DNA of 64,000 bases from Zanthoxylum bungeanum (Eukaryota; Streptophyta; Magnoliopsida; Sapindales; Rutaceae). This document shows, piece by piece, positions 2,920 to 46,928 of this stretch; position 1 is the first letter of the stretch; each line of letters begins with the position of its first letter. The translations under genes and the position numbers were made by a program. The notes below the pieces were generated by a model that saw only the letters and a program-made list of their open reading frames with translations, had not been told where the DNA came from and did not search any database. The DNA is taken from positions 150,720-214,719 of the forward strand of contig SKCR01038859.1 of assembly GCA_019454045.1 (NCBI GenBank), given 5' to 3'.

Positions 2920-2931
2920 GCTCTAATACCA
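2920..2931 (-). other. Primer-binding site of copia copy A (tRNA-iMet type)
   Basis: Read on the minus strand this is TGGTATTAGAGC, one mismatch from the tRNA-iMet primer site TGGTATCAGAGC. It lies 1 nt inside the LTR end at 2933. This fixes the element's orientation as minus and identifies the LTR at 2933-4886 as its 5' LTR. Confidence 0.85.
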
Positions 2932-2932
2932 T

Positions 2933-5156: not shown

Positions 5157-5286
5157 GAGTCTTGTGCAGTGTGTGACAGTGACAACCCTATTAAAGTCAT
5201 GCATGTATTTTAACTTACCTGGTTCGTTGGCCATTACCGGACTTACCTGTTGTTTTGCTGCTTTTGTGAGATGCTTTGATTTTTAA

Positions 5287-13277: not shown

Positions 13278-14686
13278 GGACCTCCTAAGCCCATCAAGGC
13301 TTTCATACAAGTTGGCCCGTTATCATTTTAAAGTGTTCAATCAGATTATCGCAAGGTATAATAATTATTTTATTTCTTTATAAATTATCAAATAAGTAAA
13401 TTCCCATGTACTTTTTGCCATACTTTCATACACACATAAGACAAGTAACAATCAATTCGTTGTGCCTATAATATTCATAGGTCTTTTTGAAAAGAGAGTA
13501 ATATTTTTATTCTAAAATGATATCAGAGTGCACACTTTCTGTCAATTACAGTTTATTTATTAAAAAAAAGTACCCATTTTTTTTTTATAATAATACATCT
13601 TTAACCCTTATAATGAGCTTTGAGTAAGTGACACTCAAACTAGTTGGCTTTAGGGCATTAGGTGTTAAGACACCCCTATAGACTTAATTGATCGGATCTC
13701 AGTTGTCAAAAAAATATTCGACTCCCTTAAGTTTTCTCTCTAACCCATGTAACAAGCTTTGGGACAGTTACTTCCAAACTAGTTGGTCTTAAGGCAATAA
13801 GTGTTAAAACACCCATACAGACTTAATTGTTCGAGTTAGAGAAGGTACGAAATTGAACTTATTCACACATATATTTCTTTTACAAACTCAAGCTCTACCA
13901 TTTTACGTGAATAATCACTGCTTACTGAGGCAAGATGTCTGGTTACTAAGTAAAAACTTGATTTGTTATTATTATCATTTTTTAAACTAACTAAAGATCA
14001 ACCGTTTTACGTGAACAATCACTGCTTGTGAGGCAAGATGTCTAGTTACTAAGTAAAAGCTTCATTAATGTTTTTTAAAAAGGAAAACACAAATTCCACT
14101 ACCCTTAGGTGCTACTGCCAACAAACTAGAGAACTGAATATTATAAAATTTTCACTTACAACCCACGATCATATGTTACCGTGTATGTTGATAGTACTAG
14201 TCAAATGAGCATATTAATATCAAATTTAATTAATATTATGGAGAATTCATAAATTTAAATGATAAAAAAAGACATGAACAAAAATAACTTGTTACGAATT
14301 ACTTTCAGGTACGTCTTAGGAGTGAAAACTCCTTACACTGCCATCTCTGAACAACAATTCCACTTGCTTAGTCAAAAATTTATTGTTGGTTTGTGTATAG
14401 TTTTTTGAATAAAACACAAAAGAAAAATCAACACAAAAATATTTTTTTTACACACAAAATAACAAAAAAATAAAAAATAATGTTTAAAAAACACAAAAAT
14501 AAAATATTTTTTAAAAAAAAACACAAGAAATGAAAACTATCTAGTCAACTATCCCCTCCCCCCAAACAAATTGAGACGTTGTCCACAATATCTGAATAAA
14601 AAGAAGTAGAGTTTAGAAGATATCGTCTGGTTAGTGTTGAAAAAACAATTGACTCAACAACAATACTCTTTAACCCAAAAAAATAA
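13278..14686 (-). repeat. 3' UTR of Athila-like element E, with tandem repeats
   Basis: From ~13345 upward this is the reverse complement of the 3' UTR of element D (27135-28100). Shared blocks include TAGGAGTGAAAACTCCTTACAC at ~14320 against GTAAGGAATTTTCACTCCTA at ~27420, and the TACTCTCTTTTCAA stretch. It holds two diverged ~130-bp tandem units at ~13600-13850 (core CAAACTAGTTGG...GTGTTAAGACACC) and two ~105-bp units at ~13905-14065 (core GAGGCAAGATGTCTGGTTACTAAG). No PPT or 3' LTR of E is visible. Homology ends near 13345, and 13278-13344 probably belongs to the older flank. Confidence 0.7.
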
Positions 14687-15333
14687 TTATAGATTGGGAT
14701 TCATATCCACTATATGCTTCTTGCCATGATTATTATACGACCAGTCCAACTTGGAAAGAAATGGGTCAATTTTAGGTTCATAGGCTAACAATTAGTCGAT
14801 TAATTCAGTAGCTTTTCCTGCAGTAAGAACAATATCTTTTTCCGATTTTGAAATGAACCCGAGTTTTTTAGCATCCTCAAGAAATACTAAAAGAAAATCA
14901 AAAAACAATTATCTATATTAAGTAGTCTAATGGATTTTCGGTGAATATTCAAATTTGCCCATGACGCAATTGTGAATATTTCTTCCAACGTGCCCAACCA
15001 ACGTGGTAAAGCAATAAAAACATCAGCATGAATGATAATTTCCCTAAGTTATTCAGACATACCCAGACAATGTATTTTTCTCCATTCGATAAGATTTTTG
15101 TCTGCTAATGTTTTTGGGATGATTCTTAAAACTTGATTATCTCATTCTTACATGGCCTTTGAAACACATCCCATCAATCCATGATTGCCACCGTCATATA
15201 CTAAATGCATGTTTCTTTCTGCCATAAATCTACCCAATTCTATTACAGCGTTAACATATTTTGGTTTAGTTCCAAAACTAGATTCATAAAATAAACAGAT
15301 ATTAGTGACTCATCGTCTTAAAGTTTTCTCCAT
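14687..15333 (-). pseudogene. LOG-like cytokinin-activating enzyme, captured copy in element E
   Basis: Minus-strand reading from an ATG at 15333 gives, across several breaks, SFGTKPKYVNAVIELGRFMA, MHLVYDGGNHGLMGCVSKAM, IIPKTLADKNLI, HADVFIALP, LGTLEEIFTIASWANLNIH, VFLEDAKKLGFISKSEKDIV and YEPKIDPFLSKLDW. It ends at a stop near 14687, about 215 codons. This is the LOG family (cytokinin riboside 5'-monophosphate phosphoribohydrolase), which releases active cytokinin base from the nucleotide in the cytosol. The PGGxGTxxE signature is damaged (PRWLGTLEE). There are at least four stops and several frameshifts. No introns are visible although plant LOG genes have several, so it came through RNA. 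It is collinear with 26484-27134 in element D. Confidence 0.85.
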
Positions 15334-15911
15334 TTTGCTCTCTCTTATTTGGATATATCGAAAAGAGAAATGATGAGCTGTAGTTATAGATCCTGAAAAA
15401 GGGTGAGCAATAAAAGCACTATTAATTATAAAATGATAATTATCAGATAAATAGTAAAGTAGATCGTGAAAGTCAAAAAGTTTAGATACCGTCGGTAAAT
15501 TAAAGCAAAGGAAATCAAAGAAATAAATTGAAAGAAAATGTACCGGTAGTTGTGATCGTGGCTCATATCTTCCTCTAGTTTTATGTTTAGTAACGGCTTG
15601 AAAGCCCTTTATGGGTCGGAGATATGCTTCCCATCCAATTTTCTTACAAATTGGCAAATACGACCTTTCAATGTCAGATTCCCGTGACTATATTATTATT
15701 TTTCTTTTTGAAATTATGTATGTAAGTTGTGAGTCAATCTATCAAGTCCATTATGATGCGTCTCAAGAGTCGTTGATATATTATCTATTGACTCCTTACT
15801 CAAGCCTTCTCTAACGAATTGAATTTTTTCTTCATGATTATTAGACATCATTCCTAAAGAACAACAATGAGTGTTGCACGTCCAACGTGCGCATTTATAA
15901 TAAACACCTAA
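15334..15911 (-). other. Non-coding spacer between pol remnant and LOG copy in E
   Basis: The LOG-proximal ~200 bp (15334-15530) is the reverse complement of 26300-26483 in element D, including a TTTTTCAGG splice-acceptor-like end. The rest (15530-15911) has broken minus-strand frames without recognisable domains. RT palm, RNase H and integrase, which should be here, are deleted. The 115-residue frame at 15310-15657 is not a gene. Confidence 0.55.
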
Positions 15912-16255
15912 TTATTTAGCTCTTCTTTTCTTAGTATATGGGATTTTCTCCAAACTAGGAATGTAAGAGATGAATGAATCAATAAATTTAAGAACCCATG
16001 TTTTAATCACTTCTTTCTTGTAAAGGTTTAATATTTTTTTAAGTGATCGACGTGTCCTAACATTATCTTTGAAATGTATTCTACGTATGCATTTTAAAAG
16101 ATTTTTATCTTTTATATCTTTTAAAGTCCATCCAATTCCTTTTTTATGTTCACTAAACGCATTTAACAACTTACTTTCTTGATCGCTTGTAAGGGAAGAA
16201 GAAATTACCACATGGTAAGTTTGTTTATTTCTAAGAAATGTATATTTCAATCCTT
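15912..16255 (-). pseudogene. Athila-like reverse transcriptase N-terminus (element E)
   Basis: The minus strand reads LKYTFLRNKQTYHVVISSSL, HKKGIGWTLKDIKDK, RRIHFKDN and LKKILNLYKKEVIKTWVLKF. This is the start of Athila-type RT, whose typical form is EHKxAIGWTxADIKGI...CMHRI...PxRxxQRRLNPxMxEVVKKEVLKLL. It ends before the palm, so no YxDD motif is present. It sits directly downstream of a protease remnant on the same strand, as expected for gag-pol order. Confidence 0.85.
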
Positions 16256-17357
16256 CAAGTAAAGTCTTTAATTTTAATTTGTGTGCTTCTTCATGTTTCT
16301 CTTCTTCAAGTCTTCCTAGTTCCTCAAAATTTTATTTCTTTCTATCGACTTCTAGTACCTATGTAGAATCAAGTAAAGAAAAATCATTAGAAAAATCTTA
16401 ATCTAATTGCGTACTTGATCCAAGAAAATTAGTTGTACAAATTTACATGGGTTCATATTTACTCCATTGAATATGTTCTTCCAAAATTAGTTCAATTGGT
16501 TCCATGTTCTCATTCACAGTCCTTATCATAGGGTTGCTCGCACATGTTAAAAATATTAAACTCCAATGTCATATTGTCAAAGGAAAAATTCATGATTCCA
16601 TTCCTGCAATTAATAAAAACATTAGCTGTTCTTAAAAATGGATGACCAAGTATTACAGGAATTGGCTTGTAACTATCTGCAACAGGTTATGTTTCTAAGA
16701 CAATAAAATCCACATCATATATGAATTTATCGACTTGTAATAACACATTTTCCATAATTCTTTTTAGATACATCAAGTGATCTATCAACAAGTAAAAGAG
16801 TAGTTGAAGTTGGTTTTAACTCTCCAATATTAAATTATTGGTAAATCAAAAATGGAAGCAAGTCGACACTAGCTCCAAGATCAAGCAATGCATGTTCAAT
16901 TTTATGATTTCAAATAATACATGAAATAGTTGGACAACCAAGGCCCTTGTATTTCAATGCATTGTCGGTTGAGAGAATGGAACTTACTTGTTCAATTAGA
17001 AAAGCTTTCTTTCTTACATGATTTATTCTGTTAATATGTACAAGTCTTTCAAAAATTTGGCATAAAATGGTATCTGTTTGATGGCATCTAACAAATAAGT
17101 ATTGACCTTCAGCTGTTTGAATATTTCATATCTTTTTGAGGAATGATTCAATTTTTATATTTTCAATGCTTGAGGAAATGAAGGTGCATGAGAAAAATCA
17201 TTATCATCAACGATAAGTAATGGTTCATCAACCCATTCATTTCCCTCTGAAGTTGACTTTTTTCAACTTCACGAGGTTTAAGAATAGGTATGTGGATCAC
17301 CTATTACTATGAATAGTAATAACAGATTTGACTCGGTCTATGTGTTGACTACCAGAA
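16256..17357 (-). pseudogene. Athila-like protease and gag-pol linker remnant (element E)
   Basis: Around 16760-16930 the minus strand reads IEHALLDLGASVDLLPFLIY, then NIGELKPTSTTLLLVDRSLD. This is the aspartic-protease block of Athila elements (usual form LLDLGASVNLLP...LGELKPTSVTLQLADRS). Frameshifts and stops follow at ~16740, 16700 and 16620. Higher coordinates up to 17352 give broken fragments of the linker. The K1 target-site duplication CAGAA is at 17353-17357. The rest of gag lies beyond K1, from 46929 on. Confidence 0.8.
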
Positions 17358-17399: not shown

Positions 17400-18823
17400 T
17401 GATGAGTGGTAAATGTATCACTATTTTCCACTCATTTGACCTAATATTTTATATATTTTCTTGATTTTTGTGAATATTTTGATTTGTTTTATGTTATTTT
17501 ATAGATAAATAAAGTTTTTCGAGGCTAAAACAATGAAAAACAGACAAAATGGCAAAACTGTCATTTAGCGCGTCGCGACAAGCACTCTACGTCGCAGCCG
17601 CTAACGTGCACCGGAGTCTGATAACGTGCTCCAAGACATGTGTCACATTCAGAGAAGATTTACTAAAATACACTGTGCTAACGTGCGCCGTTTGCTAATG
17701 TGCTCCGAAAATCTGCTAATGTGCGCTTGCCACATGTCAACATCTTAGGAAATCTGTTAACGTGCATCGCGCCATGTGTCACCATCACATGCTGTCGATA
17801 ATCATCATCGCCACATCAGCACGATTATTGAATTAATCTATCATCCCCTGCCACGTGTCAGCCGATCCGCGTTAGGCACCCTAAATCACAATGTGTAGCG
17901 ACGCGCAATGGCTACGTGTCTTGACTCGCCAAGCCTATTGGCTCGAAATTTCAGTTGTAATCTCATACTTTTCTCTATGTAATTCCTTAAGAATACTAGA
18001 GGATTGTATCTTGCTTGTTTATTTATAGCTTTCAGTAATTAATTTCCGCTTTTGCACTTTCTTTTCTTTACTTTTCACTTTTTAATTTATGCAATTTACT
18101 TTTACGCACAATATTTTCCTTTCTTTACTTTTTAGCAATTTACTTTTCAGTAATGAGGAGGTAACTTCGCCTTGTTGGGGTGAAAGGTAAAACTTTTATT
18201 ACTAATAGTTAGATTAATCTTCCTTAAATATAATATATAAACTAGTTAAAATCTGACTTAATGAGGATACCGCTATATTGATCGGTTGGTAATTATTAAA
18301 ATTGGTTTTAACCTGACTAAACTGGATACCGCCTGGTTGGTCGATTTCTAATTAATTAATAATTTAACTTAATCAGGATACCGCATATATGACTGGTTGG
18401 TAATTATCACGCAAAGTTAATATATTATATTAAGAGAGATATCTAAAATAATAGTGATAAAAGTGGATTTTTTAACCCAAAGTATTTTCTTTTTTGTATT
18501 TTTATATTTTTACTTTCCAGCATTTACTTTTCAATATTTGCTTTATGTCTTTTATTATTTTTTAAGTTTTTACTAGCCGTAAATATGTGTAGTAAATAAG
18601 CCCATTATTTGGGATTGTGAAGAATTCCAATATCAACGGTTTATAAGAGGTTATTTTATAGTTGGGTAATATAAAGGTTTACTTACTAAGTCTTAAAGTT
18701 AATGCTTATTGTTAACTGGCCACTAATAAGATTGATCAGGTTACTTAAAATAAACTTGACAGAGGAATTTTAGGTTTCAGCCTTAGACTTAATAGCTCAC
18801 GATCTTTCTTGAGGATAGATAAC

Positions 18824-21800
18824 TGTAACATCCCCGATCTGAGAGATGTTACCTGCAGAGGATATCAGTACTAACCTCATAGCCCCTTACTTCCTAACTG
18901 TATTCTAAGCTATTCAAATGCAATGTCATGTATGGGGACCATAACCCAACTTATTAATATAAAGTACTTTTGTTACTCATAACTATATACTCAAAACTTA
19001 CTTTCTTTACAAACATTAACAGACACTCATAATGATTATAAGACACTAATGAATGCATACAACTTTACTTTGACACTGACTGGACTCTCATGCTATCTGA
19101 CTCTCTGCTAGTGGACTTCATCCCCAGTGACTACATCAGTATCCGTCCTCCCTAGTACGTCCTCCTGAATTTCCTGTAAAAATACAAATACTAGGGTAGG
19201 GGGTTAGATCGATGTACGATCTAAGTAAGAACATTTGGTTTTATAACTGAAATCTCATAAAATAGCTTTATAAGAAAACTGGTTTGTTGCTTTAAAATTC
19301 TGAATTTCTTACAAAACTGCTGGATCTGGAAACTTTCTTTTCTAAATCTCTTTCTGAAAACTGTGACTAAAATCTAAATTTTTTTCTGAAAAACTGTATC
19401 TCTATCTAAAAAATAACTGTACGTATGAGGGTGTTACGTATCGCCGTCCTCCTATACGCCTAACTGGAGCCAACAATGCAAATCCATGACTTTGGGGCGT
19501 TATGTAACACCATCCCCCAAAGCATGCCACCAATGTCTCTAAAACTGGTGGTCTTGGGGTGTTAAGTATCGTCGTCCCCCAAAACTGAAGCTGGGGGTAC
19601 GGATCTATGCTACCACAAACTGGGGTCTAAGGGCGTTACATATCGTCGTCCTCCTAGCCCAGCTCGAGGATATGAGAGCATCCCCTCAGTCCTCCACATG
19701 TGCACATGTCACTATATCCGTCAATTCCAAACTATATCAAGTTGCATACTTGGGTGATTTTTTCCCTCATGCCCCAAAAAACATGAAAACCATATTTTAA
19801 ATCTTAAAACTGCAAATATTGTTTTCTGAAAATCATTTCCTTTCTTAAAGCATAACTATAAATAACAATAACTAAAAAGAAAAGCTTTTAACACCATAAA
19901 GCGTAAAATGTAAGTCTGATATGAAAATACGAAATGAAAATCAAGTAAAAGAGAAAGTATCCACTCACTGGTTCAGAATTTTCTTATGACACTTTGCGAT
20001 GGTGGCGAAATCGTATCTCTTGGAGATAATCTAGAATTAGCAAAATTCGTTAGTACCAAGGTTGCGAATTATATCATTTCTTAATAAAATTTGTTCATTA
20101 TTCATGTTAACTCATACTTACTACGTTACTAATATTTTAGAGTAGTCTAATAATTTTTATTAAGCTCGTTCGAGGATTTCACAAGCTACTTCATAAAACT
20201 CCATATTCTGCCATCTATCCAGAAAGTTTTAGTGCGCCTACAGTGACTTTGAAAATTTGGTGTGCTAAATCGGGATTGAATTTGGCCCTAAAATTTTAAT
20301 AAAATACTCGCTTATGTGTCTACTTTATGTTGGATTTTACAGATAGCAGTTTTGATTCCTAGAACGCAAGTTATGGACTGAAGTTCGGGGGTTGTGCGGC
20401 TGGAAAAACTGGGCACAGGGGCAGCAGATAGTCTGACTTCAAAAATTCGGTCTGGTCTCATCTTAAGTCAAAAATTCTACATTTTGGATATGTTACTACT
20501 TTATATGTCTAGTTTATGCAAAAATTTACGCTTCATCAATCGGATATCAGAAACATAACTTATAACCAATTCTTCCCAGCCTGTCCGGAAAACATCCTAA
20601 ACCAACATCTCCTGTAACTTTATTATTTCGTCTTCTTTCTAATTCCATCAATCCAACAAACCCCAACAGAATTTTAACCATTTTAATCACTATTTATAAC
20701 ATGTGAATTGTGTTTATTTTCTTCAATTAATTGGAGTGTGGCATTATATCGAACACTTGGTGTGCGGCATGCCTAAATCCCCCCATTCTTACAAAACAAT
20801 ACTTAAAACATCATAATACACCCTATTCCTCATAAACTAAATCATCATTTCATCAACAACCAACTTTCAATCAATTACATATACTTCATGTAATTAAACC
20901 CAAAACTTAATAATTTTCAATCCATATTTTAATTCAAACAATAATCAATCCCCAAATCAAATACCACATCCACAAAACATTCTCAAGCTAATACAACATT
21001 TAGTTTATCATTATAGCACACTTCTAAAATTCATCATCAATCCTCATCATCCAAATCAAATTAACAAACTTGGATAGCAAATCCAAAATTTACCCAACAC
21101 CCATTTCTTCTTCACAAATCATCTAAAGTCCATTTCATAACAATACTTTCATGCTATAACCCAATATATAAAACATTATCTTACACTCCATTTAACATAC
21201 ATCAATCTTCCAATTTATCAATAATTCAATTATTTATACACCAAACCACTTACTAATCCCAAAACTACATAACCCATTTTATTACTTCTAATTTCATATC
21301 CTTAACTAGTCTCAAGCTTAGGAGTTTTAAATCAAATCTTCAAACAAATTTTACTATAACAACAATTTTCAATCATGCTTCTATCATCCTTGAATCATTA
21401 AAATTCATAAATTTAAAAATTTGGGTTAAAAGCTCTTACCTTATTTATTATTGTTTCTTTCTCCTTCCATGCCTCTTAATATTGCCAAGCTCTTCTCTAT
21501 TTCTTTTCTTCTTCCTCTTCTTCTCTTCTTCTTCTTTTTCTTCTCTTCTTCTTCTTTTTTTTCTCTTCCCTCTTTTTTCTTTCTTACGTATTTTTCTTTC
21601 CTTTGATTTGTAAATAGCACTCCCTTTATATAGTGGGGTGCCTTAGATATTTGGAAGTTTGTGAAAAAGTATAGAGAAATCTAGAAAGTTTGAGATTTCT
21701 CCTTTTAACCCCGAAATTACTATTCATATATATTTTAACTTGTGTTTTTGACCCGGTTCTGGTCCGAATTTGGGAAAATATTTAACGCAGAAGTTGTAGG

Positions 21801-22053
21801 TCTCAATCTTAGGTTTTCAAAGATATAAAATTCATAAAAATCAGAGATCATATGAAAAAGTTATTCCCCAAATACTATGGGCGGTTCAACGGAAACACGG
21901 TACAGTCTCATCCCGGGACTTCGATAAATTTACCAATAGTCCCTAAAATCATCTCATGAATATGTTTGAGCCTTAACATAATTTATTCTTCATGCCTTCG
22001 TCCCGTTCGTAATAGTATTACTGTAGGCAGTAGTAAAACTACTGGTCATTACA
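18824..22053 (-). mobile_element. Solo LTR K2, TSD ATAAC, inside the 5' LTR of D
   Basis: Plus-strand ends TGTAACATCCCC and GGTCATTACA are flanked by ATAAC at 18819-18823 and 22054-22058. The 3' LTR of D has the unoccupied site (GGATAGATAACCCTTTA at 29826-29842), which confirms the insertion and the duplication. It is 3230 bp, ~700 bp longer than K0 because of extra sequence at about 20.2-21.4 kb. In element sense it carries a TATATAAAG box (complement of 21625-21633), a pyrimidine/purine tract (21480-21600) and a hairpin array at 19423-19660. It is minus-oriented and has no internal region. Confidence 0.95.
19423..19660 (-). repeat. Hairpin array in LTR K2
   Basis: Same layout as K0 with four units and the loop GTTACGTATCGCCGT or close variants. 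Arms include CTTTGGGG/CCCCCAAAG at 19490-19522 and TTGGGG/CCCCCAA at 19555-19583. The first (GTATGAGGG/CCTCCTATAC) and fourth (CTAAGGG/CCTCCTAG) are weaker. Loop changes such as CGTTATGTAACACCAT in unit 2 show decay. Confidence 0.8.
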
Positions 22054-22566
22054 ATAACCCTTTAATAGATTTCCTTACAGGATAGACATATACCTGTTGG
22101 GCGGGGGGGTAGCCACAATTAGAACTTAATCTTAATGAATTCAGGTAACCTGGTTGACATAGACATATAGTTTAATTGGGTTACACTGGGTATTTACATC
22201 TGGCCATCCACATAAGCTTTTGCAGAATTTCGTGTTTCGGGTTAGTAAACTAATATATTACACAAATGTAAAATAACCACTTCATCTTTTAAAAAGCTAT
22301 TGGAATAATTCACAACCCTGGATAGTTTCTTAATATTGAATTTTCTTTAATCTACTTTCGCGCCTTTTTATTTATTTGTTTTAAATTCAAAGTCACAATT
22401 CAGATCACCATCAAATCAAATAATCAATCCATTAGATACTTGTAATAATTTGACTTCATAAATTAATAGCTTAGGTATTAAGTTCTCGTGGGATCGATAC
22501 TTTTCATACTACTTGAACGATACGTGCGCTTGCACTATACGCATGTGAATACGCCGGTCAAGTTTT

Positions 22567-22584
22567 TGGCGCCGTTGTTGGGGA
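22567..22584 (+). other. Primer-binding site of D (tRNA-Asp type)
   Basis: TGGCGCCGTTGTTGGGGA closely matches the complement of the tRNA-Asp 3' end used by Athila elements (TGGCGCCGTTGCCGGGGA). It is six bases downstream of the LTR end and sets the element's orientation as plus. Confidence 0.9.
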
Positions 22585-22801
22585 CTTATTTATCTTCCAC
22601 TATTAGTTTTGGAGTTAGATACCTTTACTTGTATCTAATTCCTTTTTACTTATTTTTATTATTTTTCTTGTGTTTCAGGTTCTCAAACCCTACATGAGAC
22701 GAACTAGAAGCTTTGAAATCCGACCGCTTGACCTAAAGATTGAAAGAACCATTAGATAGTTGAGAAGGGAAAGGCGAGAAGGCTAAGAAGCAATTGTTAA
22801 C

Positions 22802-23404
22802 ATGGAACCTGAACCTTTAGAAGTTTCACCACCAATTCCCATTCGAGACAGAACCATTCCGGTGGTTGACGGCTTCATTTCCTGTATTGTACTTCCTCCC
22901 TTACCAGCAAATGCGTGTGACATCAAAACATACATTCAGATGATACAGAAGTCAGTTCAGTTTTGGGAGAATGTAACTGAAGATCCTAATGCCCACATTA
23001 GAAACTTCAAGGAAGTTTGCGACACTTTCAATTACAACCGAGCAGTTGAAGAAGCAATGAGACTGCGTGTTCTTCCATATTCCCTGAAAGACAAAGCTAA
23101 AGCTTTGCTACATTCAGTACCAGCCGGTTCCATCATAACTTGGAACACTCTAGCCACCAAATGTCTTGCAAAGTACTTTCCACCAGCCACAACTGCAAAG
23201 CTGAGGAATGACATCACATCTTTTCTGCAACAAGACTTAGAATCCCTCTGTGAAGCTTGGGAAAGGTATAAAGATTTACTCCGAAAATTTCCTCACCATG
23301 AGATTCCAAAATGGATACAAGTCCAAACTTTCTATAATGGACTTTCTGGAATAATGAGAACCACAATCGATGCTATTGCTAGAGGAGCTCTAATGGAAAA
23401 ATGA
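22802..23404 (+). pseudogene. Athila gag (element D)
   Basis: An open frame of 200 residues begins MEPEPLEVSPPIP. The capsid part includes NAHIRNFKEVCDTFNYN, RLRVLPYSLKDKAKALLHSV, FPPATTAKLRNDITSFLQQ, LCEAWERYKDLLRKFPHH and QTFYNGLSGIMRT. These are the conserved blocks of Athila Gag, which forms the particle coat. A TGA after GALMEK closes the frame where the family continues. Upstream, a short Arg-rich stretch from 22694 (MRRTRSFEIRPLDLKIER) is probably the original N-terminus, separated by a stop at 22757. Confidence 0.9.
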
Positions 23405-24732: not shown

Positions 24733-24765
24733 GACCAAGAAGTTACCTTCAATGTTTTCAAAGCC

Positions 24766-25440
24766 ATGAAATACACGAGTGAAGAAAAAGAGGAATGTTT
24801 CAGAATTGATGTTGAAAAACTACCTCTACCAATAACTATCAAAGTGATTCGGAGTTTTCTCGGACATGCTGGCTTTTACAATAGATTTATCAAAGACTTC
24901 TCAAAGATTGCTAAACCTCTGTGCAATCTTCTGGAGAAAGATTTTCTTTTCAATTTCACCAGAGAATGCCACGAAGCTTTTGAGATCTTAAAACAGAAGC
25001 TGGTCTCTACCCCCATCATAGTAGCACCTGACTGGACCCTTCCATTTGAGGTGATGTGCGATGCTAGTGATTTTACTGTAGGTGCAGTTTTAGGACAACG
25101 CAAAGCAAAGATTTTCCATACCATTTACTACTCCAGCAGAACTCTAAATGAAGCTCAACTCAACTACACAACAACTAAAAATGAGTTGTTTGCAGTTGTG
25201 TTCGCTTTTGATAAATTCTGGTGGTGGTCTACACAAATTATTCAGCAATCAAATACTTGATCGTGAAGAAAAATGACAAACCCAGATTGATCCGTTGGAT
25301 ACTTCTACTGCAAGAATTTGATGTAGAGATCCGAGACTAGAAATAAATAGAAAACCAAGCAACAGATTATTTATCAAGGCTCAAGAATAGAGAAACAGCT
25401 GGCAAAGAACTGACAATCAAAGAAACTTTTCCATATGAAC
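24766..25440 (+). pseudogene. Athila RT thumb/connection and RNase H; RT palm deleted (element D)
   Basis: The 164-residue frame begins with the protease-RT linker (YTSEEKEECFRIDVEK) and jumps directly to IKVIRSFLGHAGFYNRFIKD (RT thumb), KPLCNLLEKD, then RNase H: FEVMCDASDFTVGAVLGQ (first catalytic Asp), YYSSRTLNEAQLNYTTTKNE and [11 protein letters not shown]. The fingers and palm, including YxDD, are absent, and the join is in frame. After 25260 the RNase H end continues in broken frames ([25 protein letters not shown]). Element D could not have made its own reverse transcriptase. Confidence 0.9.
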
Positions 25441-25499
25441 AGTTATTTTCCATGAAACAGCATGATGTCCATTGGTATGCTGACTATGTTAACTAAATA

Positions 25500-26290
25500 G
25501 TGTCAAGAAATGGCCGTTGGAATGGACAACTCAACAACGGAAGAAATTCTTCAAAGAAGTCAAGCGTTATGTCTGGGATAAGCCGTACCTGTTCAAACGC
25601 TATGCTGATCAATTACTGAGACAACGTGTTCCACATGAGGAGGTCAATAGTGTCTTGCAACATTGTCACTCGTCATCATACGATGGACACTTCAGCGGGA
25701 ATAAAATTACAGTCAAAGTCTTACAATCAGGTTTGTTCTGGCCCACTCTTTTTAAAGATGCTTATCTTTGTGCTCTTCAATGTGACAGGTGCCAGAGAAC
25801 AGGAAATATTTCAAGGAGAAATGAAGGACCTCTGTAAAATATTCTGGAAGTGGAAATATTTGATGTATATGGGATTGACTTTATGGGACCCTCTGTTCCA
25901 TCATTTGGAAACCTGTATATAGTAGTTGCAGTAGACTACGTCTCCAAATGGGTTGAAGCAATTGTACTACCATCCAATGATTCAAAAGTGGTGATAAAAT
26001 TCCTTTAAAAGAATATTTTCACTCGTTTCGGAACACCTTGGGCTATTATTAGCAATGGTGCCACACGTTTCTTCAACAAATACTTCGATGGAATCCTATC
26101 CAAATACGGAGTTACTCATAAAGTTACCACTGCCTATCATCCACAGTCAAATGGACAGGTTGAAGTTTCGAACAGGGAGATCAAAAGAATCTTGGAGAGA
26201 ACCGTTGGATCAACAAGGAGGGACTGGTCTATAAAATTGGATGATGCATTATGGGCCTACCAGACAGCTGACAAATTTGTCTTTTACTAA
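25500..26290 (+). pseudogene. Athila integrase, C-terminus replaced (element D)
   Basis: The N-terminal HHCC zinc domain reads CHSSSYDGHFSG ... CDRCQRTGNISRRN. The core has the first catalytic Asp in [15 protein letters not shown], then [11 protein letters not shown]. The second catalytic position is [10 protein letters not shown] with Asn at 26054-26056 where the family has Asp. The Glu is in [15 protein letters not shown], followed by [10 protein letters not shown]. Sequence then leaves the integrase at ~26270 and enters a non-coding stretch preceding the LOG copy. Frameshift near 25835 and stop at 26006. Enzymatically dead. Confidence 0.9.
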
Positions 26291-26483
26291 TAATTGTAAT
26301 TTTTTTTTGTTATTTTCTTTTATTTTCTCCGACAAGATCCAGGCTTTTTGACCTTCACGATTTATTTTACTATTTAACTAATAATTATCATTTAGTAGGT
26401 ACTAGTGCTACTATTATTACTCACTTTTTTCAGGTGTTATGAATTCAACTCATCATTGCATTTTTGAAGGCATCCAAATAAAA

Positions 26484-27134
26484 ATGGAAGCCACTTCAAA
26501 AAGACGAGTTGTAAATATCTATATCTTTTATGTTACTAGTATTGGTACTAAGCCACAATATGTGGCGGCAGCACAGGAATTGAGACGAGTCTTACCTGAA
26601 AAGAATATGCACTTAGTATATGGCGGTGTTAATCTTGGACTAATGGGGATCATTTCAAAGACCGTATAGGATAGAGGCAGCCAAGTCTTGGGAATCATCC
26701 CAAAATCTTTATTGGAGGTGAATCTGATAGGACCATCAAACAGAGAGAAACTAATTGTGGCAGGTATGTCTGAACAACTGGTAGAAATGATTAATCGTGC
26801 TGATGCTTTTATTGCTTTGCCAGGTGGCTTGGGTACAATGGAAGAAATCTTTACTGTAATATCTTGGGCGAACTTGAACATACACTAGAAACCAATTAAA
26901 CTGTTCAATGGATATGGATTTTATGATTTTTTGTGTATTTCTTGATGATGTCCAGAGAAATTGGTTTGTGTCAAAACCTTTAAAAAACTCCTCTTTACTG
27001 CCAGAACTGCCCTAGATTTAATTGACCAAATCTTAGCATTTGAACCAAAAATTGACCCTATCCTTTCCAAGATAAACTAGTTCGATAATGATCGTGGTAA
27101 CAAGCGTCAGATAAATCTATATCTTAACCTTTAA
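26484..27134 (+). pseudogene. LOG-like cytokinin-activating enzyme, captured copy in element D
   Basis: From ATG 26484 the frame reads VNIYIFYVTSIGTKPQYVAA, AQELRRVLPEKNMHLVYGGV and NLGLMGIISKTV. After TAG 26667 it continues GSQVLGIIPKSLLEVNLIGP, MSEQLVEMINRADAFIALPG and GLGTMEEIFTVISWANLNIH, then TAG 26886, KPIKLFN and YDF. After a shift it reads ARTALDLIDQILAFEPKIDP, TAG 27078, and ends TAA 27134. That is ~217 codons, a normal LOG length. The PGGxGTxxE phosphoribohydrolase signature is intact (ALPGGLGTMEE). LOG enzymes convert cytokinin riboside monophosphates to active bases in the cytosol. The copy has no introns, sits between integrase and the 3' UTR in element orientation, and is collinear with 14687-15333 in E. 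It is broken by three stops and at least two frameshifts. Confidence 0.92.
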
Positions 27135-28451
27135 ATTTTCTTTGTAGATATAGAATTTCAGCTAACCAGGTACTATCTTCTAAACTCATCTTCTACTTTT
27201 TAAGACAATGGGGACAACATCACATTTAGATTTGGGGGAGGGAAATATTTGATTAGTATCTTGTAATTATTCTGTTATTTTTATTTGATTTTTAGTTAAA
27301 ATTTTCAAAATATTCAAAAAAATTGAAAAACTTTACAAAAATTTTAAAAAAAATATATTTTATATTTTTATGTTTTTAACATGATTAATCAGGTGAAATT
27401 GGTGTGAGATAGTTGTGTAAGGAATTTTCACTCCTAAGACGTATCTCAACCTATTTCGGAATAAGTTAATTTTTGTTTATTTCCTTTTGAATTATTTAAT
27501 TTGTGAATTCTCCAAAATATTGACTAAAATGAATCTTTATATGCTCAATTGATAGGTATTATCAACATACAAGGTAACATACGGAAATGAGTTGTAATTT
27601 ACGAGTTTGTAATATTATGTGCTCTAGTTTAATTGGAGGAATCATCTAAAAAGTAATGGGATAAAAAAATGTTGAGATCCGATTTATTAAGTTTGTATTG
27701 GTGTTTTAACACCTAATTCCCTAAAATCAACTGGTTTGGAAGCCACTGGCCCAAAGTTTGCTACATGGATCAAAGATGTTAGAAAAATATATATATATCT
27801 GAAGTCCGAGTAATTAAGTCCGTAGGGGTGTCTTGACACCTGCTGCCCTAAAGTCAACTGGTTTGGAAATCGCTAGCCTAAAGCTCGCTATATGGATATA
27901 AAATATTATATATAAATAAAAAAAAATCAGAAAAAACAGAAAAATATTTCATTGCCTAAACAAAGGTGTGAATTCTGATATAACTTTAGGATAAAAATAT
28001 TACTCTCTTTTCAACTACACTTGTGAATATTGTGGGCACAATGACTTGATTAATACTTGTTAGCTGTGTATATGGAGAATAGTAAAAATAATCGGATAAT
28101 TTACTTATTCGGTAATTTAAAAAGAAAGAAAACAACTCTAAACTTAGATAAGAAGTTTCACCTGATTAGCACTAACTCGTTTACTCTATTTTTCTCTTGT
28201 CTTTTGCTTTTTTGTGCATTAGTTTTACTATCTTTTTACTTTTGTGAAACATTTGTGGGTATCGTTGCTATAAGCCCTCACGAGACTACAACTCGTCCAC
28301 TAGGGAAACCTAGGGGTTCAAAGGCTTGTTGCATATGCTAAATGAAACTGTGATCCCTACGAAAGTGGCTTAGTTTAATGTTTATTTTAAAGATGTTTAT
28401 GTTATTTTATTTTTTTTTGCTCGAGGACTAGCAAAATTTTAGGTTTGGTGG
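27135..28451 (+). other. 3' UTR and polypurine tract of element D
   Basis: AT-rich, no gene. It contains two diverged ~130-bp tandem units (27672-27790 and 27791-27905) with core CTAAAATCAACTGGTTTGGAA and small palindromes GGTGTTTTAACACC / GTGTCTTGACAC. It is homologous to the 3' UTR of E (13345-14686). The end (28420-28451) reads GCTCGAGGACTAGCAAAATTTTAGG then GTTTGGTGG, the usual Athila PPT region before LTR TG. Confidence 0.75.
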
Positions 28452-30333
28452 TGTGATATTTTGATGTGTTTTGTGTTATTTTGTAGATAAATAAAGTTTC
28501 AGGACTATCTGTAATCAATTCAGGCTAAAACAGTGAAAAACAGACAAAATGGCAAAACTATCATTTGGTGCGTCGTGACACGCACTCTGCATCGCGATCG
28601 CTAACGTGCGTCGGAGTCCATTAACTTGAGCTAGGACATGTGTCACATTCAGATAAGATTTGCTAAAATAAGCCGTGCTCACGTGCGCTGAATCTACTAA
28701 CATGTGTCTGCCACATGTCAACATCTCAGGAAATCTGCTAACGTGCGTCGTGCCACATGTCACCATCACATGCTGCCGACAATCATCATCACCACATCAG
28801 CATAATTATTGAATTAATCTTTCATCCCCTGCCACGTGTCAGCCGATCCGCGTTTGGCGCTGCAAATCATGGCGTGTCACAAAGCATAATGGCTACACAT
28901 CGTGACGCGCCAAGCCTATTGGTGCCTATAAATGAGCTCGAAATTTCAGTTGTAATATCATACTTTTCTCTATGTAATTCATTAAGAATACTAGAGGATT
29001 GTATCTTGTTTGTTTATTTAAAGCTTTCAGAAATTAATTTCTGCTTTTGCACTTTTTTTTCTTTCCTTTTCACTCTTTAATTTCTGCAATTTACTTTTAC
29101 GCACAATATTTTCCTTTCTTTACTTTTCAGCAATTTACTTTTCAGTAATGAGGAGGTAACTCCCCCTTACTGAGGTGAAAGGTAAAATTTTTATTTCTAA
29201 TATTTAGATTAATCTCCCTTAAATATAATATATAAACTAGTTAAAACCTGACTTAATGAGGATATCGTTATATTGGTCGGTTGGTAATTATTAAAATTGG
29301 TTTTAACCTGACTAAACTGGATACCGCCTGGTTGGTCGGTTGGTAATTAATTATTAATTTGACTTAATCAGGATAGCGCCTATATGGCTGGTTGGTAATT
29401 ATCACTCAAAGTTAATATATTATATTAAGGAAGATATCTAAAATAGTAGTGATAAAAGTGGATCATTTAACCTGCAGCATTTTCTTTTATTGTACTTTTA
29501 CATTTTTACTTTCCAGCATTTACTTTTCCACATTTACTTTTCAGTATTTACTTTATGTCTTTTATTTTATTTATGTTTTTATTAGCCGTAAATATGTGTC
29601 GTAACTAAGCCCGTTATCTGGGGTTGTGAAGAATTCCAATATCACCGGTTTATAAGGGGTTATTTTATAGTTTGGGTAATATAAAAGAATTACTTATTAA
29701 ATCTTAAGCTTAATGCTGCTTGTTAATCGGCCACTAATAAGATTGATCAGGTAAACTTATAATAAACTTAACAAGGAATTTTAGGTTTCAACCTTATACT
29801 TAATAGCCCACGATCTTCATGGAGGATAGATAACCCTTTAATAGATTTTCTTACAGGATAAACATATACATGTCGGAGGGGTAGCCACAATTAGAACTTA
29901 ATCTTAATGAATTCAGGTAACTTGGTTGACACAGATATATGGTTTAATTGGGTTACATTGGGTATTTACATCTGACCATCGACAGAGACTTTTGCAGAAT
30001 TTTGTGTTCCAAGTCAGTAAACTAATATATTACACAAATGTAAAATAACCACTTCATCTTTTAAAAAGATATTAGAATAATTCACAACCCTCGATAGTTT
30101 CTTAATATTGAATTTTCTTTAATCTACTTTTGCCGCCTTTTTATTTATTTATTTTAAATTCAAAGTCACAATTCAGATCACCATCCAATCAAACAATCAA
30201 TCCAATTGATACTTGTAATAATTTGACATCATAAATTAATAGCTTAGGTATTAAGTCCTCATGGGATAGATAATTTTTATACTATTTGAACGATACATGC
30301 ACTTGCGTTATATGCGTGTGAATACGTCGGTCA
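28452..30333 (+). repeat. 3' LTR of Athila element D
   Basis: Starts TGTGATATTTTGATG directly after the PPT and ends ...CGTCGGTCA. It is 1882 bp and aligns with 17469-22560 minus K2. It keeps CCTATTGG followed by TATAAATGA (28927-28935), a CAAT/TATA arrangement missing from the 5' LTR. A G-box GCCACGTGTC lies at 28831. The unoccupied K2 site (ATAAC once) is at 29830-29834. The 5 bp after it (AATAT) pair with AATAG before the 5' LTR. Confidence 0.9.
28927..28935 (+). promoter_or_regulatory. TATA box of the D 3' LTR
   Basis: TATAAATGA lies 11 bp after CCTATTGG, in the position expected for the retroelement promoter. The 5' LTR lost this segment (CTATTGGCTCG at ~17936-17945). Confidence 0.65.
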
Positions 30334-30338
30334 AATAT

Positions 30339-32775
30339 ATCGTACTATTCCCCTAAGTCTCTGTCCTTCTAAATATAAACTAAGCTATTCTCTTTTCCCA
30401 AATCAAATTCTTATTTAAGGAACCAATGTCCAAACTTGACAACATGGAAAACAAATTTATTATTAATAACTGTAAACTTATAAACACTTGTTTTGTAATG
30501 ACTACACAACACCCAAATACTAATACATGACTTCTGCTTAACACTGACTGGACACTCATTGACTCTGACTTGAACTAGTGGACTCCATATCCTAATGACT
30601 ACATCAGTATCCGTCCTTTCAAGCTCGTCCTCCGAGAATACTTGTAAAAAGAGAACTCTGGAGAGGGGTTTAGATCGCTATACGATCTAAGTGAGTGGAT
30701 AAAAAACTGAAATACTAATATAAATCATTTGGTTTTAAAATCAAGATTTCCATAAATAACTTATATGAAAACTCTCTTTTTGAAAACTTCGCTTGAAATC
30801 TCTTTTGTAAAACTTAATCTTTCTGAAAACTACTTTCTGAAATCTGTCTATAAAATCTAATCTCTGAAATTCTTTTTTTGAAAATCCGATGTATAAATGC
30901 TGGGTTGGATCTGAAAAACTTGACGTTTGGGAGCGTTACGTATCGCCGTCTCTCCATACGCCTAACTAGAGCCAGGACTGCAAAACCATGACTTTGGGAG
31001 ATTACATATCACCATCCCCCAAAGAATGCCACTTCCGTACCTGAAACTGGTGGTCTTGGGGCATTACGTATTGCCGTCCCCCAAGCCACAAAAACTAAAC
31101 TGGGGGTGCGGATCTATGCTACCATACAAGCTCTGAAACTAAGATCTAGGGGCATCTGTCATCCTTAGTCCTGAACTAAGATCTGAGGTATTACGTATCC
31201 CTGTCCCCCCAATCCTCTACATATACACATGTTCTCTTTCCATCAGTTTCAAACTGTATCAAGTTATATACTGAGGTGGGTTTTTCCCCATGTCTCGAAA
31301 AACAGAAAACATATTCTGAAAACACTTCTTTCTCAAATATAACTTAAATCATCAGCTTTTATGTGACCATTGTAATAAAATGATCTATCGCCCTAAGGCA
31401 TAAAACGTAAGTCTGTTGCATAAATAACAAATGAAAATCAATTAAAAGAGTAGTGTCCACCTCACAGTTAGAATCTCTGGCTGGAGTTATACCGCTTCGT
31501 CGAATGAGATCGCAACTCCTATAATGGTCTATAAGTGATAACTTGATATGAGATAAGTTCTGGAACTAGGCTAAACTGCTAAATTCAAATACGTAATATC
31601 GTAACTTGGTATATTATACTTGTCCTAAGATGAAATATGTGCATACGAACTGATACGAGACCCTAAGGATGGTCTCTAACACGCTAGGGTGGTTTAAAAT
31701 AATTTTTGGGGAATTTTGTGCCATCCGTCGTGACGCAAACCCTTGTGCGTCACGATGCGTAGCATCCAGAGGCGTGCCATCATTTTCTTCTTGTGCATTG
31801 CGACGTAAATCCCTTTTGCATCGCGACATGAAATAGAATTCCAGGATTCTGTTCTTTATCTCCAATCCAACTCACCCAATTGCACTTTCTACCATTTCTA
31901 TACTAAAACCATAACCTAAAACATCATCATACATCATCTTCACACATTAAAATTCGAGTTAACATCCTCACCACTTCTAGAACAATATCTACACACAAAC
32001 AATTCAATTAATCTTCAATTCCATATTCAAGACAATATATCATCCCCCAATAATTCCTTAACCTCACACTTCTTATTTTTGACCAATCCTTTAAAAATTT
32101 CTATATTTGGGTATTTAACCCAATAATCATCTTCCTTACTTATCAATTACCAATATTCAATTGTTTTTTTATGCCAACATTCCTATTCTACCATTATGCT
32201 CCCAAAATTCAACAAATCAAATTTTTGGGTAAAGCTTTCTTACCTTTCTCTTCTTGCTTTTCTTCATTATCTAAACCCTCCATTGATGCTCATCTTCTTA
32301 TTATTTGCTTCCTTTCTCATTTCGTCTATCTTTTTTTTCTTTTATTCTATTTTTCTTCTTTTCTTCTCTTCTTCCCCTTCTTTCTTTCACGATTTTTCCT
32401 TCATTTTTCTACTCAATTTTTCACTTTTGGAATGAGGAAATAGTGCCCTATTTATAGAGGGAGGAGTTGATTTTTTGTGATGAAATTTAGAGGTTAGGAT
32501 TAAGCCACCTCATCTTTTATAGACCAATCCCGAAATTTACTGTAGCTACCTCTGATTTATCAATTTTTGACTCATTTCGGTTTCAAATTTGGAACAATTC
32601 CCAATGTGAAAGTTGTAGGTCTCGGTCTTAGCTTTCCGATGATATAAAATTCATAAAAATCAAAGATTTTACGAAAAGTTTACGGCCTGAACACCAAAGG
32701 TTTTTCGAGGTGTAACAAAAACTAAGTTCTGCGTCGAAATTTCAAGAAATCATCTAATTGTCCCGATGCTATTTT
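30339..32775 (-). mobile_element. Solo LTR K1, segment 2 of 3
   Basis: GTACTATTCCCCTAAG... resumes K1 after the D insertion and aligns with K0 10776-13190 (for example GGGGTTTAGATCGCTATACGATCTAAGTGAGTGGA at ~30665). It includes a hairpin array (~30925-31200), CGTCGTGACG and CATCGCGAC motifs (31726, 31818), a pyrimidine tract (32300-32400) and an element-sense TATAAATAG box (complement of 32448-32457). It is cut at 32775 by the copia insertion, whose duplication ATTTT occupies 32771-32775. Confidence 0.85.
30925..31205 (-). repeat. Hairpin array in LTR K1
   Basis: The loop GCGTTACGTATCGCCGT or variants recurs four times. Complementary arms are clear in CTTTGGG/CCCCCAAAG (~30991-31024) and CTTGGGG/CCCCCAAG (~31054-31086). 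The first and last units have decayed arms. Confidence 0.75.
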
Positions 32776-34757
32776 TGTTGGGTTTTCTAGGTCAAACCAA
32801 GATCAATTAAGCGAATGAAATGTGTGAATACAACAAAGTAAAGTAGTGGAAATACTCACTTTGATCGGTTAGATGTTGGCGGAGAGTTCAAAACTTTTGC
32901 CTTTGAGAAGTTGTTCCAAGCTTTCCTTTTTTATGTGTTCTGCCAAGCCCCTTGGATTTGATCTTCAAGCTCCAAGCTTTGTGAATGATTGCATGCTCAT
33001 GAATGGATTTCCCTATCACCTTTGTAAGACCTATTTAGTGTGCTAGCACTTGGAAAAATTTGCCACAAATTGTTTCCTTTGCTTCTTGTTGCTCTCGGCC
33101 AATGAGAGAAATTTTGAGAGAAAAATGGCTTCCAAGTAGTGAGATGGAGAGGGAGAGAATCAAGTTGTGTGTATTTTGATTTCAAAAAACATACACCACT
33201 TACCACTTTCCAAAAATGGTACAAGGCATTAATGCCTCTTAACAACTCCCATCACTCAAAAGTGACAAGATGCCAATCACCAAAAAGGTGACATGACACA
33301 CATCACAAAAAGTGGATGTGACATGTGAGTGACTTGCGGTGTGATTTGTGGCCGCACTTGATTCAAAATCGGAGTGGCCTCGTAATCACACCCCGGGCTC
33401 GGGTTCGTTAATTCCGAATTAACAAATTTTTACGTTGCGACGTAATTAAATCAAATTTAATTAAATAATTATGCCTAGCAAAATTACAATTCACGTCGCT
33501 AGCGAATTAATTCTAAATTAACTCGTTGGCCCGAATTTAAATCTAATTTTAATTCCACATCGAAATCCAATTTTGTTTAATATATCGAATATATTATTTT
33601 ATCAATTAATTCCGAATTAATCGTTCTCTCTCTTTAAATAGTATTTTATCCTAGATAAAATGTCTCCGTAATTAATCCCAGATTAATTTTCTCTCTCTTA
33701 TTAATTCTAGATTAATTATGCTCGAGTTATACGTCATCGGTGAATCTTCAGGAAGCGACCCATGAGATCCCTGGATATGTTGGCAGTAAATCCGTCGTCG
33801 GACTATTCGAATACGTACGTACCTAGTACTATATTTTTACCAATTTACAAGACATGGTTGGCTTCTAGCAAAGTACCGTGCCTACCCAATTCTCCAGAAA
33901 TATTCTTAAAGGAATATTTAATCTGTATCATGCGTAGTATACATAGTATTGCATATTGCGATCCAGTATCGGATTTCACGTGCTAGGCTTGGTGCTGGAA
34001 TTATGTCTGCCCCGTACGAAGCACATATCGGATCTCTAGTAACTAGTCTCTATAATCGGATAAACATGAGCTAGTCATATTATCCCGATAACTGCAGTAC
34101 ATAAGAGTACTAGTTCCGTATCCTACGTGATCATCATCTTCATATAACTGAAGTGATACTTCTATCTTGACATCACACCCAATACACTACGATTCTCAAT
34201 ATACCCAGAAGAGGCGTACACAGAACCTGTTAAAGCCCTAGACGACCAAAACCAAAGTATATTGATTGTCGCAAGTATTAGCGATGTAAGTCTCAGGTTA
34301 AGAAAATACACCTACCCTGATTCGGACTTCTATAGACACATAGTCATACTACCAATGGAATTCCGAGAGTTCTATCCAGAGCGAAGCTGTTTCCATACCA
34401 ATGGTAAACATAACCTCCTATCACACTTGCATAAGTATCCAATACTTAAATATATGAGAACTATGCTATTATGCTCCCACAACGCGCACAAGTGCAATAC
34501 TAGTCTATTTCGCATTATCGAAGTCCAATCTCAATAATACTATGACTAGGGATGTTTTAATGATTAAACCTTAGTGAATTAATATTGTCTCATATCTTAT
34601 TAATCCGGAACTAATCATATGGACTTTTATCATTTATATATCCCGGTAATTCAATTCCAAATGATAAAATAACAATTTTCTTTTTCACATAGTTAATTTG
34701 TACAACAACATAATGTTCTGTACAAATAGTGATGCTATGGATCATAATTGCCCAACA
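32776..34757 (-). repeat. 3' LTR of the copia element (copy B)
   Basis: Plus-strand ends are TGTTGGGTTTTC and ATTGCCCAACA. The left flank is the target-site copy ATTTT (32771-32775). No primer site adjoins it; instead the sequence right of it is a copia polypurine tract, so it is the 3' LTR of a minus-strand element. 1982 bp, closely similar to 44841-46833. Confidence 0.9.
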
Positions 34758-34818
34758 ATCTCTCACTTGGCCTATAGCCAATCACTAAGGTGTCCTACAC
34801 TTGAACTATGTACGGGTC
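34758..34818 (-). other. Polypurine tract and 3' tail of copia copy B internal region
   Basis: On the minus strand CCAAGTGAGAGATTG joins directly to the LTR start TGTTGGGCAATT, the usual copia ending (AAGTGGGAGATTG). The K3 target-site copy GGGTC is at 34814-34818. The internal region continues at 39073. Confidence 0.8.
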
Positions 34819-41794: not shown

Positions 41795-42520
41795 TCAGCA
41801 GATTCTGCACATCATTACATATTTATGTACCACATTTAGTATCAAAAATCCAATTTTGAAACTAGTAGTGAATTTATGACAAACATACTTGAAGTCGGAG
41901 CCTTGCCCCACCTTCACTTCCTTCATGTTTGCCTTGTCCATACGGCAGTCACTCTTCCAATGACCCCGTTTGCCACAGTTTAGGCAGACATATTGGGATA
42001 TGTGTTTTGTCTTCCCAGAAAACTGTGATGATTTTTCCTTTGCCCTTTTCCACAACCTAGAAGCCTTCGGCGAAGCCTTTGCTTTCTAGGATGTCGAAGT
42101 AAGATGCGCCTTGCGCTTCTTGCCCTTTTGCAAACTCTGGCTTTGTCTCATTGAGCATAGCCATTAACTTTCCAAGATTTTTCTATTGCAATTAGTACTT
42201 CTAAGATCTGAGTATAGATCTATGAAGATCCTTCAATTTCAATATCATACTATAAAGATCTAATCCTTAGTTCTGACAAAGAAATTAAGGAGTCTTTGCG
42301 GCAAGCATAACGGATTGAGCACTAAAGTTATCATCACATGAATCTTCCAAAGATCATGTTCTACTATTTGCTCAACTATGGGCTTAGGCCAAATAAGTTG
42401 CTCTATCAAATAGAGTAACTTCTTAGTTCCTAGGACTATCCTGAGGTTCTATTCCCAATCTGAAAATTGAAGCCGTTTAAAGACATTTACACCCAGGATT
42501 ATGTTTTAAACGCTAATCTT
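41795..42520 (-). pseudogene. Copia gag with CCHC zinc knuckle (copy B)
   Basis: The 86-residue minus-strand frame has QYVCLNCGKRGHWKSDCRMD, a CX2CX4HX4C zinc knuckle that binds element RNA. Upstream (higher coordinates), other frames read MLNETKPEFAKGQEAQ, NFSAQSVMLAA and LYSMILKLKDLHRSIL, remnants of the Gag body. No start codon or continuous frame remains. Confidence 0.8.
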
Positions 42521-44826: not shown

Positions 44827-44838
44827 GCTCTAATACCA
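44827..44838 (-). other. Primer-binding site of copia copy B (tRNA-iMet type)
   Basis: Minus-strand TGGTATTAGAGC, identical to the site in copy A and one mismatch from TGGTATCAGAGC, lies 2 nt from the LTR end at 44841. Confidence 0.9.
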
Positions 44839-44840
44839 TT

Positions 44841-46833: not shown

Positions 46834-46838
46834 ATTTT

Positions 46839-46923: not shown

Positions 46924-46928
46924 CAGAA

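Follow-up and report, generated by a model that had tools for sequence, protein, structure and literature searches.

A decayed LOG-family sequence in Zanthoxylum bungeanum, probably a long-kept extra gene of an Athila-like retrotransposon family

A 64,000-nucleotide stretch of the Zanthoxylum bungeanum genome (contig SKCR01038859.1; hereafter the window) was analysed, and it was found that 26484-27134 of its plus strand reads as a LOG-family protein across all 217 codons. Quite probably, this sequence is what decay has left of an extra gene that belongs regularly to an Athila-like Ty3/gypsy family, a gene that was captured long ago and whose frame selection preserved during its time in the element. 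The sequences suggest that LOG is a long-kept extra gene of a retrotransposon family in several trees, and not a one-off capture. This reading is built on the homology, the position and the common flanks, on the constraint by codon position, on gene models from three genera that join LOG to element pieces, and on a predicted fold.

The homology is far beyond chance. Read with X at its stops, the sequence matches PF03641 (E 4.1e-26; 92.1 bits against a cut-off of 27), TIGR00730 (1e-34; 119.8 bits against a cut-off of 96.35) and the Arabidopsis At2g37210 structure 2a33 (2.7e-38; residues 4-197), and it is 72% identical over 217 amino acids to P0001, an intact protein of 217 residues. These matches bear out the original prediction of a LOG-family sequence at this place. 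The predicted YGG-type and ALPGGLGTMEE motifs are also present, with PGGLGTMEE for the PGGxGTxxE signature, and the natural-looking last stop lies in the same place as the end of the intact relatives. The reading ends in LYLNL and has Q at the R98 position. The predicted length of about 217 codons was right as well, but it had been missed that five further stops interrupt the reading before its end and that a segment near 26930-26990 is out of frame. Thus, this copy of LOG encodes no protein. Its broken reading falls far below the cut-off of NF058542, a curated equivalog model of the cytokinin enzyme (89 bits against 300). As had been predicted, no intron was seen in it.

The element that carries this sequence (element D) has an LTR at each end and, between them in gypsy order, pieces of gag, RNase H and integrase, all on the plus strand. 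The 5′ LTR begins with TGTGA. Its first part (17469-18823) aligns with the 3′ LTR (28452-30334) and its second part (22054-22561) is 91% identical to 29830-30334, while another repeat is inserted between the two parts (18824-22053), with pieces matching parts of 10737-13272. The gag piece lies at 22787-23404 (PF03732, 2.2e-18) and the RNase H piece at 24733-25257 (PF17919, 1.4e-26); a reverse-transcriptase piece was not found among the frames scanned. The integrase (25493-26275; PF17921, 6.2e-09) is broken and truncated on its C-terminal side. It matches residues 219-479 of the Citrus model P0121 at 60% identity and ends at 26275, where the remainder of the integrase is missing; in its core part, rve_3 matches only below its cut-off. 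The LOG sequence follows in sense orientation, between this truncated integrase and the 3′ LTR, as the original prediction had placed it, and is followed by a 3′ untranslated region (27135-28451) that is largely common to a second copy described below. The LTR pair of D diverges by a K80 distance of 0.113 (0.093 without CpG sites), and therefore the insertion is old. In a check for a target-site duplication, the flanks ATTTT (before) and AATAT (after) were alike at three of five positions. Directly after the 5′ LTR, 22567-22584 reads like a primer-binding site and may correspond to the tRNA-Asp site of Athila elements. The assignment of D as an Athila-like Ty3/gypsy element rests on its general anatomy and on this possible primer site. 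The Athila ORF-1 family PF03078, which according to passages of PMC6317226 is found in 16% of Athila elements, was found neither in the pieces of the window that were scanned nor in the scanned gene models.

A second LOG sequence was revealed by tblastn on the minus strand of the same window, at 14690-15333, in an element called C. It is broken too, with five stops and one frame change near 14880. It matches P0001 at 15333-14857 (55%) and, towards its end, at 14887-14690 (48%); the corresponding matches to P0005 are 15333-14824 (57%) and 14878-14690 (67%). The PGGxGTxxE region is degenerate in this copy, and neither C nor D retains an intact open LOG frame. Upstream of the C LOG sequence lies the remnant of an extra frame (15568-15854), of which 15854-15597 matches residues 803-887 of the Citrus model P0124 (52%) and 15645-15568 matches residues 581-606 of P0121 (69%), in both models shortly ahead of LOG. 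The scanned piece of this nameless frame had no match in Pfam. Farther upstream, pieces of a protease-like region and of the start of the reverse transcriptase (15912-17356; parts named by eye) match P0124, P0125, P0128 and P0006; 15912-16331 had no match in Pfam. The 3′ region of C (13365-14689) is largely collinear with that of D. A gag-like part of C, matched by P0128 and P0125, lies at 46925-47828, also on the minus strand. Residues 93-145 of P0125 match 47083-46925 and residues 145-163 match 17356-17300, so this part appears to have been split from the remainder of C by a nest that begins with D. Element C is older than element D. An integrase was not found in copy C, where only the protease-like and early reverse-transcriptase parts were recognized.

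Other sequences of the window were also noted. A stretch that resembles a reverse transcriptase (9230-8634, minus strand; 33% to residues 3-223 of P0121) comes from some other gypsy element. Three related long repeats (1-4884, 32774-34759 and 41893-46835), two of them inside the nest within C, are possibly LTRs of another element, and 5235-6569 is a degenerate tandem array whose copies are spaced by roughly 97 and 153 bases. A host exon of the E3 ubiquitin ligase UPL7 lies at 62793-63416 (plus strand). Among the best 120 of its 132 protein matches, the closest is 81% identical, with Citrus sinensis at 80%, Pistacia at 76%, Xanthoceras and Dipteronia at 75% and Acer at 72-74%. By this one exon, the host most likely belongs to Sapindales and stands closer to Citrus than to the other genera, while lying outside Citrus itself.

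The two LOG copies were then compared together with their surroundings. D 26298-27630 aligns with minus-strand C 15529-14123 at 67% identity (this first block reaches 27662 in a second alignment), and D 27686-28135 aligns with C 13827-13365 at 72%. The flanks are thus common to D and C on both sides of LOG, and therefore LOG was element-borne before D and C parted. Neither a private boundary nor a poly-A was seen by eye at the LOG ends, and with flanks common to both copies an independent processed-pseudogene insertion of LOG was rejected. In the nucleotide alignment, the differences between the two LOG copies at codon positions 1, 2 and 3 are 66/213, 47/214 and 90/212 (31, 22 and 42%; p=0.00085). 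No such pattern exists in the 5′ flank (15/62, 19/61 and 14/61; p=0.63) or in the 3′ flank (51/168, 50/169 and 48/170; p=0.94). The NG86 dN/dS of the LOG pair, from a protein-guided alignment of 210 codon pairs with stops skipped, is 0.264 (bootstrap 0.159-0.396; 996 of 1000 bootstraps usable). In overall nucleotide identity, LOG (68%) is not above its flanks (74% before it; 65, 63 and 78% in the three blocks after it), and therefore the evidence of selection lies in the codon-position pattern. Since the common flanks put the ancestor of D and C inside the element, the constraint is taken as acting on the element-borne LOG. Once inserted, the two copies probably decayed without constraint, so a lower dN/dS is probable for the time before.

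Is LOG found beside element pieces in other plants? A first protein search, of whose 1872 matches the best 120 were listed, was complemented by a search aimed at long proteins only, which gave 10 matches among 862 candidates, including four from Citrus sinensis, two from Acer and one from an alga. The Citrus model P0121 (826 amino acids) has reverse transcriptase, integrase and LOG (PF03641) in that order. P0124 (1489 amino acids; 12 members) combines gag-like and integrase parts with a further frame that is followed by LOG and, after it, by another, different integrase; the read-through into the second integrase was taken as a gene-prediction join and not as element structure. The joining of LOG to a BED-type protein and a leucine-rich-repeat protein in the Citrus models P0122 and P0123 was likewise taken as gene-prediction joins. 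In Acer P0125 and P0128 and in Xanthoceras P0006 (359 amino acids), pieces that are gag- or protease-like, by their likeness to the window, are joined to LOG; with the Pfam gag family, P0128 matched only below the cut-off and P0125 had no match. As known from gene models, LOG thus adjoins element pieces in three genera, Citrus, Acer and Xanthoceras, and it stands in sense after the integrase of the same element in D and in the models P0121 and P0124. Together with the second copy and its flanks, these models uphold in outline the predicted capture and mobilisation of LOG. The intact near relatives P0001-P0005 and P0008 are known here without element surroundings, five of the six being on sequences of about 1 kb. 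Among the sequences examined there is no intact whole LOG-bearing element, both D and C being broken, and a scan of IMG/VR with P0001 found no relative. Among the matches listed, the LOG clusters P0074 and P0098 (Xanthoceras) and P0086 have 35, 39 and 205 member sequences, respectively. Such sizes would fit a multicopy element gene, or might come from repeated sampling of one plant.

The motifs of the relatives and their fold were inspected for what the protein may do. Of the 120 listed relatives, 42 that are full or nearly full in length were picked; in these, P113, G114, G115, G117 and E120 are invariant, E121 varies once and R98, a residue with a role in LOG enzymes, varies six times (Q in all six). 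The PGGxGTxxE signature is kept in 103 of the 120 listed proteins, fragments included. It is lost in all four Citrus models P0121-P0124, which come only from the search for long joined models; these have PGDLATLEA, PRDLATLEA or PGDLAILEA, with the LOG frame still readable. The predicted structure of P0005 (pLDDT 85) is most similar to Arabidopsis 2a33 (rmsd 1.1); further matches include bacterial LOGs, of which some have AMP bound. By sequence and model, much of the clade looks enzymatically fit, while the Citrus models do not, and an enzyme activity on cytokinin nucleotides is plausible for most of the relatives.

The tail of these proteins may tell another story, in which LOG was kept as a nucleotide-binding scaffold for a role other than cytokinin, possibly in the nucleus and binding a co-repressor. 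Among the 90 listed proteins of 205-260 amino acids, the tail contains a basic pair in 84 and ends in LxLxL, the form of an EAR co-repressor motif, in 70; the end of the D reading (LYLNL) has the same form. The tail lies outside the fold (pLDDT <50 at 203-217 in the P0005 model), and P0121 and P0123 have kept it (KKYKLDLTLRL) despite the loss of PGGxGTxxE. However, LxLxL is absent from the Xanthoceras tails and from P0036 and P0042, which group with Acer, and no such tail is seen in P0122 and P0124. With the catalytic motif also so widely kept, a role apart from cytokinin is unlikely, and any role given here to the LxLxL tail is a guess.

How many times was LOG captured? Trees were built from 105 of the 120 listed proteins (at least 170 amino acids; P0006, P0016 and P0028 left out), with FastTree on 109 and on 117 sequences and with IQ-TREE (LG+G4) on 36 picked from the 117. 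In the IQ-TREE tree, a single clade of 33 sequences (bootstrap 100) unites the element-associated LOGs with their relatives, as set against two Arabidopsis LOGs and the alga, the only references from outside the clade. Within it, the lines of Citrus, C and D come together with a support of 93. The intact P0001-P0003 are grouped with D at 100, without C, and C sits with P0008 at a weak 52. Support is weak throughout for the node comprising just D, C and the intact proteins that lie between them (0.80 and 0.60 with FastTree on 109 and 117 sequences; 55 with IQ-TREE). It is also weak where the Xanthoceras and Acer groups attach to the rest (71 with IQ-TREE) and where they pair with each other (0.09 with FastTree on 117 sequences). 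This weakness would suit an element family that repeatedly takes up LOG genes at one site, with an independent capture in each lineage. Against it stand the sequence common to D and C on both sides of LOG and the single clade, the latter as seen against the two Arabidopsis LOGs, and I regard independent captures as rather improbable. Named Populus and Reevesia proteins, the Populus ones under the name LOGL10, also fall inside the clade of 33. Either they are element-borne too, or a LOG of the element went back into the host, or LOG was captured more than once.

That one element picked up a host LOG transcript and moved it once or twice as a passenger of no use to itself is very improbable: both window copies are indeed broken, LOG as a whole is no better preserved than its flanks, and one-off transduction by LTR elements is described in passages of PMC7264820, but two much diverged copies have both flanks in common, the codon-position constraint is in LOG and absent from the flanks, and LOG stands beside gag or pol pieces in the models of three genera. 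The original prediction had itself named two findings that would speak against capture by the element, insertion boundaries or a poly-A belonging to LOG itself and a lack of other element copies with LOG; no such boundaries were seen by eye, and element C in the same window carries LOG. Its argument that LOG was acquired as RNA because it is intronless fails. A sense cargo passes through RNA at every transposition and would lose its introns whatever its route of entry, so the absence of introns is uninformative on the route of capture.

For the preferred reading, a regular extra gene of the element family, the following course of events may be proposed. An ancestor of the Athila-like family would have taken up a plant LOG gene long ago, and LOG would then have been copied with the element. 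It would lie in sense, downstream of pol and upstream of the 3′ region, at the position that an env-like frame occupies in other Athila elements; in better-kept copies the nameless extra frame would stand between pol and LOG. Selection would have held the LOG protein frame while it was element-borne, and the breakage seen in D and C would have come after their insertion. In intact elements, LOG would most likely be translated from a spliced sub-genomic RNA. A pyrimidine tract with CAG lies 50 bases upstream of the LOG start in D (26424-26433) and 59 bases upstream in C, in the same arrangement, and the leaders of P0010 and P0011 fit this stretch by eye; by analogy with env, it may be the splice acceptor of such an RNA. 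The protein of intact elements would most likely fold as an ordinary type-I LOG, as modelled. With less certainty, it would most likely act on cytokinin nucleotides and raise active cytokinin where the element is expressed, and a higher cytokinin level would favour the dividing meristem cells that pass the element on.

According to passages of PMC9289625, consensus sequences of LTR elements from Citrus sinensis and C. clementina carry the YgdH domain, otherwise one of LONELY GUY proteins, and those from Populus trichocarpa do so when a filter is off; Steinbauerova et al. (2011) are cited there as being in agreement. Like D, these are cases of a LOG-type domain in plant gypsy elements, and in the Citrus models found here LOG comes after pol. 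The original expectation that such a cargo would be unusual has to be moderated, and the cargo is not unique, since LOG (YgdH) in gypsy elements is already in print. The passages of that report give no lineage, position, age or selection, whereas the present analysis adds a further host, most likely of Sapindales, two diverged copies that have their flanks in common, a constraint test and the Acer and Xanthoceras models. Among the matches listed in a search of the literature on LOG, YgdH or cytokinin with retrotransposons, only PMC9289625, in the passages seen, placed the domain in a plant element, and nothing was found on the lineage, order, age, selection or wider spread of LOG-bearing elements, some of which the 2011 paper may hold. 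Searches on LOG with an EAR motif (titles and abstract starts of the matches listed) gave nothing relevant and those on intronless LOG genes nothing useful, and a term search within PMC11593424 and PMC11963269 gave nothing on LOG introns or element-borne LOG. As far as seen, then, the existence of LOG-bearing plant gypsy elements is already known in print, and D is a decayed member of a little-described kind.

Several known systems resemble this one in part. Athila elements with an env-like frame, as described in passages of PMC7264820 and PMC6317226, also have an extra frame in sense between pol and the 3′ LTR; in D, by contrast, this frame is a LOG-family enzyme, and PF03078 is missing from the pieces scanned. 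Passages of PMC9289625 state that extra genes are common in plant retroelements, most often without known domains, and describe an AlkB-type m6A demethylase in gypsy elements of Phalaenopsis. There, likewise, a host-like enzyme has become a permanent extra gene in a gypsy family, although the enzyme and the lineage are different and its activity was demonstrated, whereas LOG here is known from sequence and a model. The plant LOGs At2g37210 (2a33) and At5g11950 (1ydh) have the same fold and motif as the element LOG and are 45-48% identical to P0005, while the element clade stands apart from them on a long branch and often has the basic LxLxL tail.

The evidence points to an old, selected, enzyme-bearing retroelement lineage. 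A wider reading can be offered tentatively, as a possibility that falls somewhat short of an even chance. A single capture of LOG by an Athila-like element would have preceded the split of the rosid orders, and all members of the clade (Xanthoceras, Acer, Citrus, this host, Populus LOGL10 and Reevesia) would be element-borne and selected since then, making or handling host cytokinin. The derived basic LxLxL tail may add a nuclear, co-repressor-binding role, and the Citrus branch would persist without the catalytic motif. If the finding holds true, a hormone-activating enzyme selected through many transpositions would mean an element that steers the growth of the cells passing it on. Some LOG annotations in tree genomes, such as the hypothetical proteins of Xanthoceras and perhaps LOGL10 of Populus, may be retroelement genes.
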